Source of the DNA: Nocardia sp. NBC_00403
Lineage (GTDB): Bacteria; Actinomycetota; Actinomycetes; Mycobacteriales; Mycobacteriaceae
DNA length: 64,000 nucleotides
Direction of reading: 5' to 3'
Assembly: GCF_036046055.1 (NCBI RefSeq)
Contig: NZ_CP107939.1
Location: 5,642,001-5,706,000, forward strand
Part shown: positions 5,441 to 14,964 of the stretch, one piece after another
Layout of the letters: each line of letters begins with the position of its first letter
Position numbering within the stretch: position 1 is the stretch's first letter
Made by a program: the position numbers and the translations under genes
Notes under the pieces: model-generated
Told to the model about the DNA's origin: nothing
The model's input: only the letters and a program-made list of their open reading frames with translations
Databases searched by the model: none

Positions 5441-6373
5441 ATGCCAAGTACTGTTCCACAGCCTGTGGCGCTGGGTGATGATGCCGCCCGGACCCTTGCG
5501 AACGCGACCAAAACCGTCCCGCAGATGGAGTCGATCACCCCGCGGTGGCTGGTTCATCTGCTCAATTGGATCCCGGTCGAGGCCGGTATCTACCGGCGCA
5601 ACCGGGTAACGCATGAGCAGACCGTCGATATTCAGTGCGACAATTTCGACGAGTCCCCGCTGCCGGAAACCTTCATCGACTACGAGAAGCAACCGCGTGA
5701 ATACCGACTGAAGGCAGTGCACACGATCCTCGACGTGCACACCCGCGTTTCGGACCTGTACTCGAGCCCGCATAGTCAGATAGCCCAGCAGTTGCGCTTG
5801 ACGATCGAAGCGATCAAAGAGCACCAAGAAGGCGAGCTCATCAACAGTCCCGACTACGGGCTGATCGCGAATGCCGCCGACAAGCAGCGGATCCCGACGA
5901 TCGCCGGACCCCCCACCCCCGATGACCTCGACAATCTGATCGCGCGCGCGTGGAAGGAACCCGGCTTCTTCCTGACGCACCCAGAAGGGATCGCGGCATT
6001 CGGGCGAGAATGCACCCGGCGCGGTGTGCCGCCACCGACGGTAAGCATGTTCGGTTCGCAGTTCCTGACCTGGCGTGGGATTCCGATCGTCCCGTCGGAC
6101 AAGGTGGCGGTCGAGAGCGGCAAGACGAAATTCCTGCTGATCCGGACCGGTGAGACCCGTCAGGGCGTGGTGGGGCTGTACCAGCCGGGACTGGCAGGCG
6201 AACAGGGGCCGGGGCTTTCGGTGAAGTTCATGGGTGTCGATCGCAGTGCGATCGCGTCGTATCTGGTGTCACTGTATTGCTCGCTGGCGATCCTCACCGA
6301 CGATGCCGTCGCAGTGCTAGAGGGAGCAGAGGTGGACAAGTTCCATGACTACGCCCCGTCCTACCGGAGCTGA
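5441..6373 (+). CDS. Family 2A encapsulin nanocompartment shell protein, 310 aa
   Basis: This is an HK97-fold capsid-like protein of the family 2A encapsulins (SrpI-like), which self-assemble into a closed protein shell. Recognition rests on the N-terminal arm with ITPRWLVHLLNWIPVEAGIYR, the segment GSQFLTWRGIPIVPSDK and the C-terminal half with IRTGETRQGVVGLYQPGL, together with length and the overlapping cysteine desulfurase gene downstream. Family 2A shells are known to load a cysteine desulfurase through its disordered N-terminus and have been linked to sulfur storage or redox stress. The start used is the ATG at 5441, with GGTGG-type purines upstream. The two genes overlap by 29 bases, so expression is coupled. 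No rhodanese or serine acetyltransferase partner is adjacent here. Confidence 0.9.
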   Translation: MPSTVPQPVALGDDAARTLANATKTVPQMESITPRWLVHLLNWIPVEAGIYRRNRVTHEQTVDIQCDNFDESPLPETFIDYEKQPREYRLKAVHTILDVHTRVSDLYSSPHSQIAQQLRLTIEAIKEHQEGELINSPDYGLIANAADKQRIPTIAGPPTPDDLDNLIARAWKEPGFFLTHPEGIAAFGRECTRRGVPPPTVSMFGSQFLTWRGIPIVPSDKVAVESGKTKFLLIRTGETRQGVVGLYQPGLAGEQGPGLSVKFMGVDRSAIASYLVSLYCSLAILTDDAVAVLEGAEVDKFHDYAPSYRS

Positions 6374-8273
6374 GCCGCCGGTTCCGCCATATTCGGCGGA
6401 TACCGTTGCGGCACCGGCGAGTTCATTGCTGCCGGACGAAGCCACGTTGAACCGTCTCGCCGCGGAGTTCTTCTCGGCGCTGCCTTCGGCGGCGCGTGGG
6501 ATCGAGTTTCCCGGCATCACGTCGCCAGACATTGTCACACCCGATTTCGCGTCGCCGGGTATCGCGACGCTCGGTGTCGCGGAGCAAGGAATGACGCCGT
6601 CGAGCGCCTCCGTTCCGGCCGCACCACCTGCGGCCGGGCGCTCGGCAGCCGGTCCAGCCGCAGGTGGTACCTCGGCAGCGAGTCCGTGGATGGCCAGTCC
6701 GTCGGCAGCCGATCGGCAGGCATCGATGCCACCCAGCTCGCCCGCACAGGGCGTCCCACCCGGAGGACCCACCCCGGATCCGACGGTGCCTTCCTGGCAG
6801 ACAGAGGTGCCCGCCAACCCGGCGGGCCGACCGCCGACCGCGGCACTGACCGGTGCAGATGTGTACACCGACCAGTTCCTCCCCGACTTGCCCACGCTGA
6901 GCAATTCCCCCAGGCTGCCACCGTCGACCGGTCCCGCACCGTCGGCCGAACCGAGCTTCTATTTCCTCGACCGGCCAGAAATCGCTGCACCACAGGCCAA
7001 TTCGCAGTTCTACTTCCTCGACGAAGGTCGCAGGGCCTCGCCCGACCGGCACCCGCCCTTCGACGTGTACGCGGTGCGCAACGACTTTCCGATTCTGCGT
7101 GAACGGGTGAACGGACAGCCGCTCGTCTGGTTCGACAATGCCGCCACCACGCAGAAACCACGATCGGTCATCGAGCGACTCACATATTTCTACGAGCACG
7201 AGAACTCGAACATCCATCGCGCCGCACACGAACTGGCCGCCCGCGCGACCGACGCATATGAGCAGGCCCGCGACATCGTGGCCCGGTTTCTCGGCGCATC
7301 CTCCGCGGAGGAGATCATCTTCGTCCGCGGCGCCACCGAAGGCATCAATCTCGTCGCCCAAACCTGGGGCCGCAAGAACATTCGCGAGGGCGACGAGATC
7401 GTCATCTCGCACCTCGAGCACCACGCGAATATCGTGCCCTGGCAGATGCTCGCCGGCGAGACCGGCGCGGTGCTGAAGGTCATCCCAGTCGATGACAGCG
7501 GGCAACTGCTGCTGGACGAGTACACAAGACTGCTGTCCGATCGCACGAAACTTGTCTCGGTAGCGCATGTTTCGAATGCGCTCGGCACGATCACGCCGGT
7601 CCACGATATCGTCGCGGCCGCGCACCGAGCCGGTGCCGTCACGCTCGTCGACGGAGCGCAATCGGTGCCGCACACCAGGATCGATGTGCGATCGATCGGC
7701 GCCGACTTCTTCGTGTTCTCCGGCCACAAGCTCTTCGGCCCCACTGGAATCGGCGTGGTGTATGGCACTTCTTCTGTGCTACAGGATGTTCCGCCATGGC
7801 AGGGCGGCGGAAACATGATCAGCGACGTCACCCTGGAACGTTCCCTCTTCCAACCGCCCCCCGGCCGCTTCGAGGCAGGCACCGGAAACATCGCCGACGC
7901 GGTCGGGCTCGGCATGGCCATCGAGTATGTCGAAGGCATCGGCATCGACAATATCGCCCGGTACGAACACGATCTTCTCGCCTATGCGACGCCCCTCGTC
8001 GCTGCGGTGCCGGGCGTTCGCCTGGTCGGGACCGCCGTCGAAAAGGCCAGTGTGCTGTCGTTCGTCATGGACGGATATCAACCACTCGAGGTCGGAAAGG
8101 CATTGAACGAGAACGGCATCGCGGTGCGCGCCGGGCATCATTGCGCTCAACCCATACTTCGGCGCTTCGGACTGGAAGCGACCGTCCGTCCCTCGTTCAC
8201 GTTCTACAACACCTGCGAGGAAGTCGACCGCATGGTTGCCGTCCTCGAACGGCTGGCCCGCGCACGTCGCTGA
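6345..8273 (+). CDS. Encapsulin cargo cysteine desulfurase (SufS-like) with long disordered N-terminus, 642 aa
   Basis: Residues about 235-640 are a class V aminotransferase/SufS-type cysteine desulfurase: WFDNAATTQKP at the start of the fold, SHLEHHANIVPW, the PLP lysine in FSGHKLFGPTGIG (K462), and the persulfide cysteine in RAGHHCAQP (C600). It would release sulfur from L-cysteine as an enzyme-bound persulfide. The first about 235 residues are low-complexity Pro/Ala/Ser/Thr sequence, expected to be disordered and to target the enzyme into the shell. Within it LPDEATLNRLAAEFFSALP (29-47) looks like a short amphipathic helix, and FYFLD occurs twice (205-209 and 222-226). The ATG at 6345 lies inside the shell gene, in a different frame. 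Confidence 0.9.
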   Translation: MTTPRPTGAEPPVPPYSADTVAAPASSLLPDEATLNRLAAEFFSALPSAARGIEFPGITSPDIVTPDFASPGIATLGVAEQGMTPSSASVPAAPPAAGRSAAGPAAGGTSAASPWMASPSAADRQASMPPSSPAQGVPPGGPTPDPTVPSWQTEVPANPAGRPPTAALTGADVYTDQFLPDLPTLSNSPRLPPSTGPAPSAEPSFYFLDRPEIAAPQANSQFYFLDEGRRASPDRHPPFDVYAVRNDFPILRERVNGQPLVWFDNAATTQKPRSVIERLTYFYEHENSNIHRAAHELAARATDAYEQARDIVARFLGASSAEEIIFVRGATEGINLVAQTWGRKNIREGDEIVISHLEHHANIVPWQMLAGETGAVLKVIPVDDSGQLLLDEYTRLLSDRTKLVSVAHVSNALGTITPVHDIVAAAHRAGAVTLVDGAQSVPHTRIDVRSIGADFFVFSGHKLFGPTGIGVVYGTSSVLQDVPPWQGGGNMISDVTLERSLFQPPPGRFEAGTGNIADAVGLGMAIEYVEGIGIDNIARYEHDLLAYATPLVAAVPGVRLVGTAVEKASVLSFVMDGYQPLEVGKALNENGIAVRAGHHCAQPILRRFGLEATVRPSFTFYNTCEEVDRMVAVLERLARARR

Positions 8274-8487: not shown

Positions 8488-9957
8488 TTAGCCGCGCAGG
8501 AGGACGACACGAGCGGTAGCCAGGCGTTCGGTCTCGTTGCGTGGTGAGTGATTGCCCGATACCTTGTCGGCCCATTCGAGCAATTGATGCAGGTAAGGGT
8601 CGGGCACGGCCGTAGCGATGCGGGGGCTGCCGATGGTGACCGCACCGCTGGTTCCATCGATGGTGACGAGCGTGCCTTCGGGGAGTGTGCGTTCACCACA
8701 GCGCACGGAGGCGGCGTCGACGATGAGGTCTGTGACCCCCACGACGGCTGGTTTGCTCATTGCTCGCGCGACGATCGCGGCGTGACAGGACGGCCCGCCA
8801 CGGGCGGTGACAACTCCGGCGGCGGCGGCCAGGCCGTGCATGTCCAGTGGGGAGGTCTCTGGTCGGATCAGTATGACCGGACCTGCTGCGGCCATCCGGA
8901 CCGCGTTGTCGGCGGTGGTCACGATTCTGCCAGCGGCGACACCTGGGCAGGCACCCAGTCCTCGGGCAAGGATGTCGGCTCCGCTGTCTGTCGCTATTCG
9001 GGGTGTGCGGGCATGCTGGAAATGTTGCGGGGAGATTCTCAGTAGTGCTTCATGGCGTTCGATCACGCCCTCGGCGGCGAGGTCGACGGCGACCCGGACC
9101 GCGGCAACAGTGGCGAGTCCGCCGGTGCGTACTTGCAGGATCCACAACGCGCCTGCCTCGAAGGTGAACTCGATGTGGCATGCGTCGCGGTAGTGGTTCT
9201 CGATGCGCGTCAGGGCGTGTACCAGGTCGGCCCACACTTGCGGCTCTCGGTCGGCCAGTTCGTGAAGGGGGCGAGTCGGTGATTTGCCGGAGACGACGTC
9301 GTCGCCTTGGCCGCCGCAGAGGACTTCACCGAACGGGACAGGTTCACCGGTGTTGGGGTCGCGGCTGAATGCGACCCCGGTCCCGCTGTGGCGATCGCGA
9401 TTCCCGTACACCATTGCCTGCACCGTTACGGCTGTGCCGAGGTCGTCCGGGATGTTGTGCAGTGCGCGGTAGGTTGCGGCACGCGGCGTGTCCCATGACG
9501 AACACACGGCCGCGACCGCCAGCTCCAGCTGCCGAGGCGCGTCCTCGGCAGCAACGGCTTCCAGACCGGCTGCGTCGATGTCGGTGATCGCGGATGCGAA
9601 ACTCGACATGAATCGCAGCCGCGATTTCCACGCGAACGATGAATTGCCTGTCTCGGCCGTCAATCCCCTGGTGGCGTTGATGGTGAGACCGAGGTTGAGG
9701 ATTGTGTTCATCATGCCGGGCATCGACACGCTGGCTCCGGAGCGGACGGACACTGTCAGCGGCCTTTCGGAGCCGCCCAGCGTGCGATGCGTAGCGGATT
9801 CGAGTTCGGTCACGGCGGTTACGAGTTCGGTATGGAAGCCCTCCGGGAAGCGCCTGTCACGGAGAAAAGCGCGGCAGGCCTGTGTGCTGCAACTCTGGCC
9901 GACTGGGAAGCATCGCTTCGCCCCCGAGGTGCGCAAACGACAAACACTGGCCCGCAA
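8488..9957 (-). CDS. ppdK: Pyruvate phosphate dikinase-like protein, short form (about 489 aa), N-terminus uncertain
   Basis: The protein contains the ATP-grasp half of pyruvate, phosphate dikinase (SVRSGASVSMPGMMNTILN, then GTGVAFSRDPNTGE and FTFEAGALWILQVRTG) and the swivelling phosphohistidine domain (GGPSCHAAIVARAMSKPAVVG, with the His). The C-terminal PEP/pyruvate barrel of the full enzyme (about 870 aa) is absent. Short proteins of about 490 aa annotated ppdK exist in mycobacteria, so this length need not be a truncation. The N-terminus is odd: the usual GGKxxxLxxM...GLPVPP segment is not readable before STQACRAFL, and pieces resembling it (GEAAHSLA) appear in another frame near 9960-10000. 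The start is therefore unresolved and a frameshift is possible. Confidence 0.7.
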   Translation of the reverse strand: MRASVCRLRTSGAKRCFPVGQSCSTQACRAFLRDRRFPEGFHTELVTAVTELESATHRTLGGSERPLTVSVRSGASVSMPGMMNTILNLGLTINATRGLTAETGNSSFAWKSRLRFMSSFASAITDIDAAGLEAVAAEDAPRQLELAVAAVCSSWDTPRAATYRALHNIPDDLGTAVTVQAMVYGNRDRHSGTGVAFSRDPNTGEPVPFGEVLCGGQGDDVVSGKSPTRPLHELADREPQVWADLVHALTRIENHYRDACHIEFTFEAGALWILQVRTGGLATVAAVRVAVDLAAEGVIERHEALLRISPQHFQHARTPRIATDSGADILARGLGACPGVAAGRIVTTADNAVRMAAAGPVILIRPETSPLDMHGLAAAAGVVTARGGPSCHAAIVARAMSKPAVVGVTDLIVDAASVRCGERTLPEGTLVTIDGTSGAVTIGSPRIATAVPDPYLHQLLEWADKVSGNHSPRNETERLATARVVLLRG

Positions 9958-10130: not shown

Positions 10131-11291
10131 TCAGTTCTCGCTGACGCCGCTGAGTTCATTCGGGGCGGCGGCCAAGGTGATGGTCGCCGCGACGGTGCCC
10201 GTCGCAAGGTCGATGCGGTGCACCTTCTTGGTGGCTGGGTCGGAGACGTAGGCCATCCCACCGCGCGCGAACAGCGCCGGGCGGGCCTGCTGCCATTTCA
10301 GCGGTTCCTGCCAGGCATCGATGACCGGGATGGCGCGGGTGACGGTGCCCGCTACGGGATCGATCACATGGATGCGACCGTCGGTGCCGAGGACCAGCGC
10401 TTCGCCCTGTGGGCCGCGGGCCAGCGATCGGAAGGTGTAGCTCGTGCCGAGATCGACCAGGCGGAGTGTGCCGGTGGCCGTGTCGATGAGTGAAATCTGC
10501 TGTGGTCGTTCCAGTTCGGCGTCCTTGTCCTGCTTGTAATCGCCGAGCACGATCGAGGAGACAGCGCTGCCCGCGGCATTCCCGATGCGGCCGTACGGGG
10601 TCGGGCTGGTCACCTTTGTGACAACACCGTTGCGGTAGACGAGAACACCTGTCTGGCAACCGATCACGACCGCCTCTTCCTTGGCGGTGGCTTCGCCGTG
10701 CACGCCGGGGCAGTCCTCGTTACGAGCGATCTCCCTGCGGTCCTTGTCGAGCACCGCGATGCCGAGGCGCTTCTCCTCGGTGCCGAGAGTGATCACCATT
10801 TCACCGTTGTCCAGTTCGACAGCGACGCCGTGATGCGGCGCGGCGGCACGGTAGACAACCGTCTCCGGCTTCCCGCCGCCGAGCGTCGCGGGGTCGAAGG
10901 AGGTGACTTCGCCGGAGCCGTCAGCGAACAGAACCGTACGCCCCGCGTGCCGGACGACGTGGCCCGGTTCCGCAGCGGGGAAATCGGTGCCGGTGAACAC
11001 GGCGTCGACCGCATCGAATACCCGGAAGCCGTCCTTGGTCGACACCATCAGATGACGATCATCGCCCGCCGGATTCAATCGGTTGAACCCCTCGAGTTTC
11101 GCCTCACCCGTCCGCGCGAGTGTCATCGCGTCCAGGACATAGATACCGCCGTCATGGGTCACCGCGATCGGCTCGCCACCCGAGGCAGACGCTTTCTTCG
11201 AGTCGTCCGCGCCGCAGCCCCCGAGGACAACCACCGAAGCGATGAGCCCGGATATGGCCGCCGATTTCGTTGCTCGTGATCGACTATGCAT
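10131..11291 (-). CDS. aztD: Zinc metallochaperone AztD-like lipoprotein, 386 aa
   Basis: A lipoprotein signal with lipobox VVLGGC (Cys about residue 26) is followed by a beta-propeller-like domain with recurring motifs (GGIYVLDAMT, RVFDAVDAV, GRIHVIDPVAGT, KVHRIDLATGT). In characterised azt systems AztD is a zinc chaperone that hands metal to the solute-binding protein AztC. The ATG at 11291 has GGAG six bases upstream. It lies 32 bases after aztC in the same direction, so it is the last gene of the minus-strand arm of this zinc locus. A His-rich metal loop is less obvious here than in the AztB fusion upstream; the name relies mainly on neighbourhood and propeller repeats. Confidence 0.8.
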   Translation of the reverse strand: MHSRSRATKSAAISGLIASVVVLGGCGADDSKKASASGGEPIAVTHDGGIYVLDAMTLARTGEAKLEGFNRLNPAGDDRHLMVSTKDGFRVFDAVDAVFTGTDFPAAEPGHVVRHAGRTVLFADGSGEVTSFDPATLGGGKPETVVYRAAAPHHGVAVELDNGEMVITLGTEEKRLGIAVLDKDRREIARNEDCPGVHGEATAKEEAVVIGCQTGVLVYRNGVVTKVTSPTPYGRIGNAAGSAVSSIVLGDYKQDKDAELERPQQISLIDTATGTLRLVDLGTSYTFRSLARGPQGEALVLGTDGRIHVIDPVAGTVTRAIPVIDAWQEPLKWQQARPALFARGGMAYVSDPATKKVHRIDLATGTVAATITLAAAPNELSGVSEN

Positions 11292-11323: not shown

Positions 11324-12241
11324 TTACGGCGTGGTGAGCCCACGCGCGATCGCCTCGGTGTTGACGCGCATCATTTCCAAGTAGGTGCCGGCACCCGCAC
11401 CGGGTTCGGTGAGCGATTCGGTATGTAGCCCGATCACCTGCACGTGCAGGCCGGCCTGTTCGGCGAGGACGTGGGCGAGCCGGTCGGGTTGCGACGAGTC
11501 GATGAAGATTGCTGGGACGTCGGCGGCTCGGATCGCGTCGGCAAGGTCTTTGAGGTCGGATGAACTCGGCGACGCGAGGGTCGTCCCGCTGGGAATCACC
11601 GCGCCGACGACCCGGAAGTCGAAACGGTGTGCCAGATAGCCGAATACGTGGTGATTGGTGACCAGTTGGCGTCGCTCGACCGGAATCGTGGCGAACCGCT
11701 CGGTCATCCAATGGTCGAGCTGATCGATCTCGGCCAGGTAGCGATCGGTCCTGGTCCGGAGGTCTGCGGCATCGATGCCGCCGACATGCTCGATGATCTC
11801 GGCGCTGATCACATCGACGGCCTTGCGCGTCTGCTTCGGATCGGTCCAGAAGTGCGGATCGGAACTGCCCGCGGATTCGTCGGAGGCGTAGCTGAGCGGG
11901 TCGAGGTGATCGGCAACGGCGACCGTTGGGACACCGGCGTTCTCGGCCGCCGCGACATTGCGGGCAACCCCTTCCTCCAAACCGAGGCCGTTGTGCACAA
12001 CCAGGCCGGCACGGTCGAGCAGTGCCGCCTGTTTGGCGGATATCGCGAAAGAGTGCGGGTCGGCGTCGGCCGGCATCAACACCGTGACTTCGGCGGCGTC
12101 GCCGACGATGGCCCGAGTCAGATCACCGAGAATATTGGTGGTGACGACGATTCCGGCGCGCTCGCCGCCACCTGTCGTGCAGGCGGCGACTACCGGCAGC
12201 AGCATCGCCAAGGCCGCAGCGATCCGCGTCACGGTTCTCAT
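11324..12241 (-). CDS. aztC: Zinc ABC transporter substrate-binding lipoprotein AztC, 305 aa
   Basis: This is a cluster A-I (ZnuA/TroA-type) solute-binding protein. It has a lipoprotein signal (LLPVVAAC), the first ligand loop ADADPHSFAISAKQ, DPHFWTDPKQTRKAVD, the second ligand His in VTNHHVFGYLAHRF, and the acidic ligand region AIFIDSSQPDRLA. It would capture zinc outside the membrane and deliver it to the AztB permease. The His-rich loop of proteobacterial ZnuA is absent, as expected where a chaperone (AztD) supplies metal. The start ATG overlaps the stop of the upstream permease gene (ATGA), so translation is coupled. Confidence 0.88.
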   Translation of the reverse strand: MRTVTRIAAALAMLLPVVAACTTGGGERAGIVVTTNILGDLTRAIVGDAAEVTVLMPADADPHSFAISAKQAALLDRAGLVVHNGLGLEEGVARNVAAAENAGVPTVAVADHLDPLSYASDESAGSSDPHFWTDPKQTRKAVDVISAEIIEHVGGIDAADLRTRTDRYLAEIDQLDHWMTERFATIPVERRQLVTNHHVFGYLAHRFDFRVVGAVIPSGTTLASPSSSDLKDLADAIRAADVPAIFIDSSQPDRLAHVLAEQAGLHVQVIGLHTESLTEPGAGAGTYLEMMRVNTEAIARGLTTP

Positions 12242-14235
12242 TCGCCGGTCTCGACCATCAGTGTCGGATCGATCCCGACGGTGAATGTGCGCGCCAAGCG
12301 CAGGTTGTCGTTGTAGGCGATCTCGTAGACCTTCCGTCGAGCCGCGTCGTTGACATAGGCGCGATTCGAATCGACCTGGATCACCGGCGGTGTGGCACCT
12401 TCGGCCAACGGCTCCAGCAGCGCTATTTGTGCTGTCTCCCTACCACTTTCGGGATCAAGGCCGCGCAGCACACCGTCTCGCGTCAACACCAGCAGCGAGG
12501 ATCCCTCCCCGGCCGTGTTCACGGCCCGCACCGGGCCGACCGACGCGAACGTCCACACCTTCTTGCGGACATCCAGCGTCCAGATCCCCTGCTCCCCGGC
12601 CTTGGCGGTAAGCGTCGCACTGCCAGGACGGTGGGTGAACTCCACCGCGCGATCGGCGTCGACCACTTCTCGCGGGTAACGAATCTTCGTGCCGGTGAAC
12701 ACTCCGTCTCGATGGGACACCACCAAAGCGCCATCAGCACAACCGAAGACCACGCCGCGACGGGTCACCGCCCGACCGCGCGGGTGGGCGCAGGGCTCGG
12801 CGACGGCAGTCACCGGCGCGCCGTCGCGGACGCGAACCTCGATTCGCCCACTCGGGACCGCGACCAGCAGATGTTCGGCGTAGGGCACCACACTGCCTTC
12901 GGCGATCCGGCCCCGTTCGGAGACCGTCCCGTTCTCCAGGGCAAGCCGGTCGAGCAGGAGCGTGGTGCCGCTCTCGAAGGCCACCGCGACCACGGCTGCG
13001 TCGGTGAGCACACCCGCCACCCGGCCGCCTACGATGGCGCCGATCCCGCGGGCCGTTGTGCGGTAGTAGTGGACGTGATCACCGTGATCGGCCGTCCATC
13101 CGCCGCCGTCTACGATCCGTGTCGAATCCGCGGCGCCGATAAACGCGAACCGACCGTCGCCCGCAATCCCACGCATGCCTTCGGCCCGACCAGCCTCGAC
13201 GACCTGCACGGTGATCAGGTCGAGCACCTCGATGGCGCCGGTTCGCTCATCGGCCAGGACCAGACGCGACTGCGCATCCGAAGTCTCCTCGGCTCCCACC
13301 ACGTAACCATGCGGCGTTGCCGCCGGCTGCCGACTGTCGGCACCGACGCCACACCCCGCCAGTGGCACTGCTGCGACAGCACCTGCCGCCAAAGCGGCAT
13401 AACGAACGCCCCTGCCGCGCAGCCGATCACGCAGTCCAGCGGCGAGTGCCGAGAGAAAGAACAACCCCACGGCGACCGCCGCGATCGTTGCGCCGCCCGC
13501 GGTTCCGGCATGCGACGAAATGATCAGCCCGACAACGGTGGACAGCGCGCCGAGCAGTGCCGCGACGAACATGACGGCCGGAATACGATCCGCCCAATAT
13601 GTCGCGGCCGCGGGCGGGGCGATGAGCAGCCCGAAGACCAGCAGAGTGCCGACGATGTGGAACGACGAGACGATCGCCAGCGTCACCAGACCAACCAGCG
13701 CAACCTGCGCGAGTCGCGGGCGCAGACCGAGCGTGTGCGCCTTGCGCGGGTCGAAAGCAAGCGCCACGAAACCGCGGTGGCCGAGCACCGCGACCGTCAC
13801 CGCGACGATCAGCGCGACGATCAGATACCAGAGGTCTCGCTCGCGCACGGCCAGCACGTCACCGAACAAGAACCCGGTGAGATCTACGGCGAACGACTGT
13901 GAGCGGGAAACAATGATCACCCCCAAGGCGAGCATGCCCACGAACAGCAGCCCGATCCCGGTGTCGGCGGACAGCCGCCGGTTACGTCCGAGTGCCGAGA
14001 CGCCGAATGCCATTGCCGCACAACTGATCGCGGCACCGAGGAGCAGATTGCCGCCCAGCAGCGACGCCACGGCGACTCCGGGCAGCATGCCGTGCGCCAT
14101 CGCGTCACCGAGAAAGGCCATGCCGCGCACTACAACCCAGGTCCCGGCCAGGGCGCATACACAGGAGACGAGCAGGCCGCCCCACAACGCCCGTTGCACG
14201 AACGCCACCTCGAACGGGGCGAATAGGAACTCCAT
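12238..14235 (-). CDS. aztB: Zinc ABC permease AztB fused to an AztD-like propeller domain, 665 aa
   Basis: The first about 285 residues are an ABC-3 family metal permease with about eight hydrophobic segments and conserved stretches (RGMAFLGDAMAHGMLPG, LVFGLLIAPPAAATYWADR, SSHAGTAGGATIAA). The reading frame then continues without interruption through RDRLRGRGVRY and a hydrophobic segment ending PLAGC, exactly like a lipoprotein signal, into about 350 residues of beta-propeller sequence with DHGDHVHYYRT, a potential metal-binding loop. So a permease and a second AztD-type domain form one polypeptide, or two proteins if translation also starts internally (a GTG lies near the last permease helix). 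The ATG at 14235 is preferred; earlier starts would run across the Zur-like box. It is divergent from aztA. Confidence 0.85.
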   Translation of the reverse strand: MEFLFAPFEVAFVQRALWGGLLVSCVCALAGTWVVVRGMAFLGDAMAHGMLPGVAVASLLGGNLLLGAAISCAAMAFGVSALGRNRRLSADTGIGLLFVGMLALGVIIVSRSQSFAVDLTGFLFGDVLAVRERDLWYLIVALIVAVTVAVLGHRGFVALAFDPRKAHTLGLRPRLAQVALVGLVTLAIVSSFHIVGTLLVFGLLIAPPAAATYWADRIPAVMFVAALLGALSTVVGLIISSHAGTAGGATIAAVAVGLFFLSALAAGLRDRLRGRGVRYAALAAGAVAAVPLAGCGVGADSRQPAATPHGYVVGAEETSDAQSRLVLADERTGAIEVLDLITVQVVEAGRAEGMRGIAGDGRFAFIGAADSTRIVDGGGWTADHGDHVHYYRTTARGIGAIVGGRVAGVLTDAAVVAVAFESGTTLLLDRLALENGTVSERGRIAEGSVVPYAEHLLVAVPSGRIEVRVRDGAPVTAVAEPCAHPRGRAVTRRGVVFGCADGALVVSHRDGVFTGTKIRYPREVVDADRAVEFTHRPGSATLTAKAGEQGIWTLDVRKKVWTFASVGPVRAVNTAGEGSSLLVLTRDGVLRGLDPESGRETAQIALLEPLAEGATPPVIQVDSNRAYVNDAARRKVYEIAYNDNLRLARTFTVGIDPTLMVETGE

Positions 14236-14252
14236 GGTCGGCCACGATATGA

Positions 14253-14267
14253 TGAAAACGATTATCA
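14253..14267. promoter_or_regulatory. Zur-like box between divergent aztB and aztA
   Basis: TGAAAACGATTATCA is an AT-rich imperfect 7-1-7 palindrome (5 of 7 arm pairs match) in otherwise very GC-rich DNA. It resembles actinobacterial Zur/FurB operators. It lies 17 bases before aztA and 17 bases before aztB, so one zinc-responsive repressor could silence both arms when zinc is ample. Inference from sequence form and gene context. Confidence 0.65.
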
Positions 14268-14283
14268 TTACAAACGAGGTGAC

Positions 14284-14964
14284 ATGTCCCACACCCCCGT
14301 TCCGGACGCGCTGCGCATCAGCGGACTATCCGTCGGCTATTCCGGCAGGCCCGTCCTGCACGACCTGACCACCGCCATCCCGTGCGGCCGCGTCACCGCG
14401 GTGGTCGGGCCCAACGGGTCGGGAAAATCCACGCTGCTCAGCGTCATCGCGGGCGTCCTCACGCCGCGAGCAGGCACCGTGTGGCGACGATCCACCGAGC
14501 GGCCCGCATTCGTCGTCCAGCACACCGCCGTTCCCGCGACACTGCCGCTCACCGTCCGGGAGACCGTCGCCATGGGACGCTGGGCACACCGCGGCCCATG
14601 GCGGTGGCTGTCCCGGCAGGACCGCAACACCGTGCACGCCTGCATGGAACGACTGGACATCACCGACCTGGCGACGCGACGCCTCGACACCCTGTCCGGC
14701 GGCCAACGCCAGCGAACCCTGATCGCTCGAGCACTCGCCCAGGAAGCGTCGCTTCTCCTGCTCGACGAACCCGCCGCCGGGCTGGATTCGGCCGCACAGC
14801 AAGAGATCTCCCGCGCACTCGGCGAGGTCAGCAGCCACGGCGTCACCGTGGTGCAGGCCACCCATGACATGGACGAGGCGATGCGCGCCGACCATTGCCT
14901 GCTCCTACGCGACGGCATGTTGATCGCCGAGGGGAAACCGCTCGCGGTACTGTCCGACCGCTGA
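14284..14964 (+). CDS. aztA: Zinc ABC transporter ATP-binding protein AztA, 226 aa
   Basis: A complete ABC ATPase: Walker A GPNGSGKSTLLS, signature LSGGQRQRTLIARAL, Walker B LLLLDEPAAGLD and the switch His in THDMDEAM. Together with AztB it would power zinc import. It is transcribed away from aztBCD from a shared control region with the Zur-like box. The ATG at 14284 follows AACGAGGTGAC, an acceptable ribosome site. Length is normal for the metal-transporter subgroup. Confidence 0.88.
   Translation: MSHTPVPDALRISGLSVGYSGRPVLHDLTTAIPCGRVTAVVGPNGSGKSTLLSVIAGVLTPRAGTVWRRSTERPAFVVQHTAVPATLPLTVRETVAMGRWAHRGPWRWLSRQDRNTVHACMERLDITDLATRRLDTLSGGQRQRTLIARALAQEASLLLLDEPAAGLDSAAQQEISRALGEVSSHGVTVVQATHDMDEAMRADHCLLLRDGMLIAEGKPLAVLSDR

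Follow-up and report, generated by a model that had tools for sequence, protein, structure and literature searches.

Two copies of a short aromatic motif are common in the disordered tails of family 2A encapsulin cysteine desulfurases, with a tightly spaced pair in Nocardia sp. NBC_00403

Two copies of a short aromatic motif of the FYFLD type are the common state in the tails of family 2A encapsulin cysteine desulfurases, and codon comparisons place both copies in the cargo of Nocardia sp. NBC_00403 under constraint. The system is a known one and the FYFLD motif itself has already been published; the new details lie only in the copy layout and in the constraint on both copies, which are not spelled out in the open-licence literature that we searched. 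The locus lies in the window (the whole 64,000-nucleotide stretch analysed here, C1:5642001-5706000 of a genome of 8.7 Mb in one contig). Judged by the curated NCBI models that its genes pass, it is a family 2A encapsulin system of two genes, ordinary for Actinomycetota, with the following features.

5441..6373, + strand: family 2A encapsulin shell protein, SrpI-like, 310 aa (NF041162 519.3 bits, cut-off 380; PF19307 334 bits)
6345..6373, + strand: overlap of the shell and cargo genes, 29 bases (ORF coordinates)
6345..8273, + strand: family 2A cargo cysteine desulfurase, 642 aa (NF041166 866.4 bits, cut-off 800; Aminotran_5 476 bits; invariant H359, K462, C600)
6429..6485, + strand: motif 1, LPDEATLNRLAAEFFSALP, residues 29-47, with a predicted helix at 32-45; counterpart of the published LARLANEFFS (AlphaFold, conservation, published motif)
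6936..7022, + strand: direct repeat of 36 nt (72% identity, 51-nt spacing), with FYFLD at the end of both copies (repeat comparison)
6957..6971, + strand: FYFLD copy 1, residues 205-209 (top-ranked tail conservation; codon constraint)
7008..7022, + strand: FYFLD copy 2, residues 222-226, lineage-restricted (gaps in relatives; codon constraint where present)
7083..8270, + strand: SufS-type cysteine desulfurase domain, from residue 247 (DFPIL) (TIGR01979 548 bits)

An earlier, sequence-only reading of this DNA had named a family 2A encapsulin system with shell and desulfurase genes overlapping by 29 bases, and both statements hold: the curated shell and cargo models score above their cut-offs, and the overlap is exact at 6345-6373. 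Solved relatives of the shell, by sequence, are 8t6r, 9ksl, 8wol, 8won, and 6x8m. The family 2B model also reaches 407.8 bits on the shell (cut-off 400), covering only profile positions 2-48 and 208-449. Because the insert positions of that model remain empty and the protein has 310 aa, the shell is without the cyclic-nucleotide-binding insert that defines 2B and is assigned to 2A instead. Shell and cargo genes overlap in 72 of 77 non-redundant loci, by 17-74 bases and by exactly 29 in 17 of them, with starts that were chosen mechanically. A described counterpart is the SrpI-CyD encapsulin of Synechococcus elongatus PCC 7942 (PMC8049743), whose shell is 66% identical to that of the window and whose SufS-type cargo likewise has a disordered tail, an aromatic motif before the enzyme, and a shell gene directly upstream. 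The two systems differ in that the S. elongatus cargo has one motif copy and 234 bases separate its gene from the shell gene, whereas the window has two close copies and the 29-base overlap. In addition, cysK, serine acetyltransferase, and rhodanese genes adjoin the S. elongatus locus and none of them adjoins the window genes.

The cargo model matches 11 places in this genome, and only the window cargo is above its cut-off. H359, K462, and C600 (window numbering) are invariant across 89 aligned cargos. We take K462 to be the PLP lysine and C600 the active cysteine, as in SufS enzymes, and their presence and invariance indicate an intact desulfurase active site. In an AlphaFold model built with the 89 aligned cargos, 331 of 642 residues have a pLDDT of at least 90, nearly all in the enzyme domain by block means, and values stay below 50 for most of the stretch 1-231, with about 27-48 as the exception. 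This long N-terminal tail, predicted to be disordered, carries both published motifs. The helix-like stretch that had been pointed out at residues 29-47 is exact in its letters, and AlphaFold confidently predicts a helix at 32-45 (block pLDDT 87 for residues 31-40). No solved structure that includes this tail came up in a sequence search up to E 10.

FYFLD occurs twice in the tail (205-209 and 222-226, separated by 12 residues), as the sequence-only reading had it. With the enzyme domain beginning at residue 247, copy 1 starts 42 residues ahead of it and copy 2 starts 25 ahead. They reach 24.6 and 27.9 bits on a motif profile whose threshold of 8.0 bits is reached anywhere by 1% of shuffled tails. 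Codon differences were compared in the 21 loci with DNA, using pairs of related sequences that are not independent. Among codon pairs that differ, FYFLD-1 has a nonsynonymous share of 0.35, FYFLD-2 (where present) 0.47, and motif 1 0.37; linker stretches have 0.75, 0.85, and 0.89. Both copies therefore change mainly synonymously, and the shuffled tails together with the codon test rule out a chance origin, which had also been doubted at the outset. Conservation separates the two copies: FYFLD-1 ranks first among 242 five-residue tail windows, both in 37 close cargos and in all 130 cargos, whereas FYFLD-2 ranks 31 and 151 and falls in a gap in 31% and 85% of them. Thus an alignment of the two sites, the check originally suggested, bears out copy 1 as conserved across the family and leaves copy 2, mostly gapped in the wider set, as a lineage feature.

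To place the pair within the family, 228 cargos were compared. They comprise 119 of 120 proteins that two homolog searches returned, the window's own included, and 109 loci: a shell-alignment scan of GTDB genomes gave 78 (out of 80), a search of the genus 23, and plasmid records 8. At 85% identity the cargos form 130 groups, in which the window protein (P0001) is grouped with L001. Three entries were left out: P0061 has no DFP[IVL]L, the L078 cargo is divided over different frames, and L116 runs into a contig end. The 130 tails hold 221 motif sites against about 1.3 expected. The motif is present in 128 of these non-redundant tails and in at least two copies in 88 (none in 2, one in 40, two in 83, three in 5). 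As the homolog-search proteins were found with motif-containing queries, the shell-found set was counted separately; among its 50 groups, each with a shell-found locus as representative, two copies occur in 42 and one in 8. Both counts rule out a duplication special to the window cargo. An Aliarcobacter locus (L045) has a 2A shell and a cargo with the motif absent, and cargo P0115 is also without it.

The centre of the motif is Y and F at 221 of 221 sites, a count with some circularity, as the motif itself seeded the profile, and is followed mostly by L and then D, G, or E. This strictness bears on the proposal that the FYFLD repeats are stickers, which associate cargo tails with one another and concentrate cargo during shell assembly. 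Aromatic motifs with variable spacing in a disordered chain are the usual layout of sticker-and-spacer proteins, and the cargo tails do hold several such motifs, variably spaced in a long proline-rich chain. The letters are nevertheless stricter than generic stickers would need (with the same circularity in the count), and we consider this explanation unlikely.

Position within the tail is regular as well. Measured before DFPIL, 140 of the 221 sites are within 60 residues (129 at 20-49) and 75 are at 61-120 (58 at 80-109). The usual layout is one copy about 80-110 residues and the other about 20-50 residues before the enzyme, with distal sites commonly reading SSPYYFLGE and proximal sites FYFLD. 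Both slots are filled in 38 of the 50 shell-found groups and in 60 of 130 overall; two proximal copies are seen in 4 of 50 and 28 of 130, respectively. The Acinetobacter baumannii cargo (L039), with motif 1 as ARLANEFFS and a shell 70% identical, resembles the window in having two motif copies. Its copies are 98 and 38 residues before DFPIL, which puts them 60 residues apart instead of 17. The window pair (42, 25) is of the two-proximal kind, which is found mostly in Nocardia and Antrihabitans and also in single Actinospica and Rubrivivax loci. An LPSL..LSPxR element that precedes the motif is ambiguous for placing the window copies in the distal or the proximal slot.

Copy number has changed repeatedly. 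The paired state needs at least eight changes on a tree of 49 enzyme domains, an approximate figure given the weak support for 17 of the 44 inner branches. P0010 and P0016 have enzyme domains that are 98.7% identical, and copy 2 is cleanly absent in P0016; its absence beside such a near-identical relative makes copy 2 look dispensable. Nocardia sp. CDC159 (L051) has a recent 173-nt in-frame direct repeat, 91% identical and with a spacing of 210 nt, that includes an element with LPSL..LSPPR and YYFLD (the letters of this element were taken from L017, which has the same layout). An in-frame tandem duplication may also lie behind the window pair, where the identity of the repeat is largely the motif itself: the 21 bases before the motif are 0.57 identical between copies versus 0.34 expected (fraction 0.02; 1 of 54 loci examined). 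The DNA trace of a recent duplication is weak in the window and clear only in L017 and CDC159.

Within the genus, 23 of the 118 Nocardia genomes sampled (this one included) have a cargo match above the cut-off, so the system is scattered in Nocardia. P0038 and P0051, both from Nocardia sp. NBC_01499, are different 2A cargos with one motif copy each, apparently on the same contig, and possibly represent two 2A systems. Cargo matches run over two frames in L032 (Nocardia G087) and in L078 (Acinetobacter calcoaceticus JUb89), which could reflect loss of the system or assembly errors.

The published loading experiments set the frame for what the motif might do. Nichols et al. (2021, eLife, PMC8049743) described 'AASPYYFLDG' and 'LARLANEFFS' in most such cargos. 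The passages of that paper drawn on here report that the S. elongatus cargo tail is necessary and sufficient for loading, that residues 1-100 load GFP but less well than 1-225, and that a fragment with the 'AASPYYFLDG'-type motif (155-183) is insufficient to load GFP; this was the only direct test of the motif that we found in print. In our comparison, the single copy of this motif in that cargo is FYFIDE at residue 178 and residues 1-100 are without it. Since residues 1-100 loaded and fragment 155-183 failed, FYFLD would be at best an auxiliary docking peptide. The sequence-only reading, which had put the copies forward as candidate shell-docking peptides, is therefore partly supported: conservation and constraint agree with it, and the failure of the homologous fragment limits the role. 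Its fuller form, in which FYFLD is a complete stand-alone loading peptide and the duplication doubles the signal, strikes us as quite improbable. That form would fit a motif so well conserved and missing from the scanned paralogs and 2B flanks, but the motif-only S. elongatus fragment did not load (PMC8049743), albeit with a single, slightly different copy (FYFID).

The same experiments also bear on a different partner for the motif. FYFLD could bind the desulfurase, within or between dimers, and tune its activity or substrate access while motif 1 alone docks the cargo. This would fit the 129 of 221 sites that are 20-49 residues before the enzyme domain, the loading already achieved by residues 1-100 in the absence of FYFLD, and the roughly sevenfold higher activity reported for the encapsulated desulfurase relative to the free enzyme (PMC8049743). 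We give this reading little weight because AlphaFold places neither copy on the enzyme with confidence, in a monomer model that a dimer-made site would escape. The blocks holding the copies score 42-46, FYFLD-1 is below 50, and two FYFLD-2 residues are at or just above 50. Membership of FYFLD in the enzyme fold itself was set aside on the same prediction.

Our preferred reading, held with only slightly better than even confidence, is that of an ordinary 2A sulfur encapsulin in which the N-terminal helix does most of the cargo docking and the FYFLD repeats add auxiliary contacts of an avidity type. The shell protein would assemble the nanocompartment, and the SufS-type desulfurase would be packed through its long disordered N-terminal tail, with the amphipathic helix at residues 32-45 as the main address. 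The FYFLD repeats, short linear motifs in one to three copies in most relatives, would make auxiliary contacts, most likely on the inner shell face, that raise avidity and keep the enzyme near the shell without being the primary signal. Partial loading by 1-100, best loading by 1-225, and none by the motif-only fragment (PMC8049743) is the pattern that a secondary contact predicts. Copy number would shift through in-frame duplication and deletion, making the avidity tunable, and the window would represent a tightly spaced pair. The gene identities, the conservation, the constraint on the two copies, their usual number, and the predicted disorder come from computation; assembly and loading of this particular pair, the shell as motif partner, and the avidity role are inferred.

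Comparison with desulfurases and shells outside the 2A cargos gives a measure of specificity. The motif is absent before the enzyme domain in eight Nocardia desulfurase paralogs below the cargo cut-off (L002-L004, L033-L037), among which the SufS-type paralogs have only a few residues before that domain. Three desulfurases beside 2B-type shells were also compared, with L126 annotated as 2B and L127 and L031 judged by a split match to the shell model. The one from Methylobacterium has one motif, and those from Kitasatospora and Nocardia G105 have none; the motif is thus not strictly tied to 2A shells. In place of FYFL, the tails of L031 (Nocardia G105) and L126 (Kitasatospora) both have RYWLP ahead of the enzyme domain, a possible 2B counterpart. 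In 516 frames of at least 60 residues from 13 family 2B shell loci, the best motif score is 3.7 versus the threshold of 8.0. This genome contributes one of those 13 loci, a full 2B shell at C1:3983765-3985111 beside a gene that looks, by eye, like a terpene cyclase. A short 2B match in two pieces is at C1:5609916-5610335, about 32 kb before the window. On the shell side, SrpI F262 and Y273 were placed near cargo density (Nichols et al. 2021, eLife, PMC8049743, in the passages cited). They align with F263 and Y274 of the window shell and are invariant in 112 2A shells, but the positions are kept in 16/19 and 18/19 2B shells too, so these residues are not supported as the FYFLD site. Family 2B terpene cyclase systems differ from the window in motif, cargo, and shell class (with the cNMP-binding insert in 2B), and likewise have a short conserved motif in disordered cargo regions. 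This motif, GPTGLGT, is repeated in geosmin-synthase-like cargos and has been proposed to target cargo, according to the sections of PMC8346489 used here.

The neighbourhood of the locus is equally unexceptional. The absence of the rhodanese and serine acetyltransferase partners, remarked on earlier, is confirmed within the window: all 13 rhodanese matches of the genome fall elsewhere, and serine acetyltransferase has no match above cut-off anywhere in this genome. Neighbours were counted in 63 of 80 shell loci with about 6 kb on both sides, with redundancy kept and nine query proteins at E up to 1e-8, which could miss distant ones. Both partners are missing in 14 of 15 Actinomycetota loci; in Pseudomonadota loci, rhodanese is present in 46 of 47 and serine acetyltransferase in 41 of 47. 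The cysE model (TIGR01172) passes its cut-off in 0 of 59 Nocardia genomes (best 170 vs 210.65 bits) and in 8 of 14 control genomes. Because the absence is usual in Actinomycetota and cysE is matched above the cut-off in none of the Nocardia genomes sampled, the other sulfur route that had been suggested is not called for. The source of the cysteine precursor in Nocardia is worth a look in its own right. The A. baumannii family 2A system reportedly stores elemental sulfur. A published summary describes family 2A desulfurase cargos, in its wording, as 'involved in sulfur storage'. If family 2A systems do store elemental sulfur, a dedicated sulfur acceptor may be unnecessary.

A hidden third partner was also sought, with every frame in the window's first 16 kb set against nine loci from Nocardia, Rhodococcus, and Antrihabitans. 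Nothing recurs except shell and cargo, and the remaining repeated rows are alternative frames across those two genes. Two neighbouring frames are worth recording for themselves. At 12238-14292 on the - strand, a 684-aa frame combines an AztB zinc permease (residues 22-274, 371 bits, over cut-off) with an AztD-like metallochaperone part (residues 346-662, where 49 bits fall short of the cut-off of 400). It adjoins a separate AztD (10131-11291), AztC, and AztA, and such a permease-chaperone fusion may be unusual. A pyruvate phosphate dikinase-like frame at 8488-9957 on the - strand has a TTG start and scores 446 vs a cut-off of 456; its match to the model of 534 positions begins only at position 49, possibly through a wrong start or a shortened gene.

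The biology of the window locus itself is ordinary, and the interest of the FYFLD pair is in what the common layout may mean for the family. Recognition of family 2 cargo is unsettled: the tail is needed, and the passages of PMC8049743 and PMC8346489 drawn on here give no minimal peptide for desulfurase cargos. A search of the main text found nothing on motif copy number in Nichols et al. (PMC8049743), which by title was the only encapsulin paper retrieved from the open-licence literature with FYFLD, YYFLD, LARLANEFF, or LARLAGEFF, and we found no loading test of a two-copy fragment in the literature searched. The two-copy layout offers a possible reason for the failure of the single-motif fragment. 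A more ambitious and tentative proposal, which we think possible but short of probable, is a bivalent rule: two FYFL-type motifs in distal and proximal slots would each bind the inner shell face and hold the enzyme dimer at four points, and lineages without the distal copy would regain valency by a new copy elsewhere, as in the window pair. The layout makes the docking question easier to test and could help engineers to load foreign enzymes. If true, the bivalent rule would amount to a code of tunable avidity for loading nanocompartments, invisible to a single-motif test.
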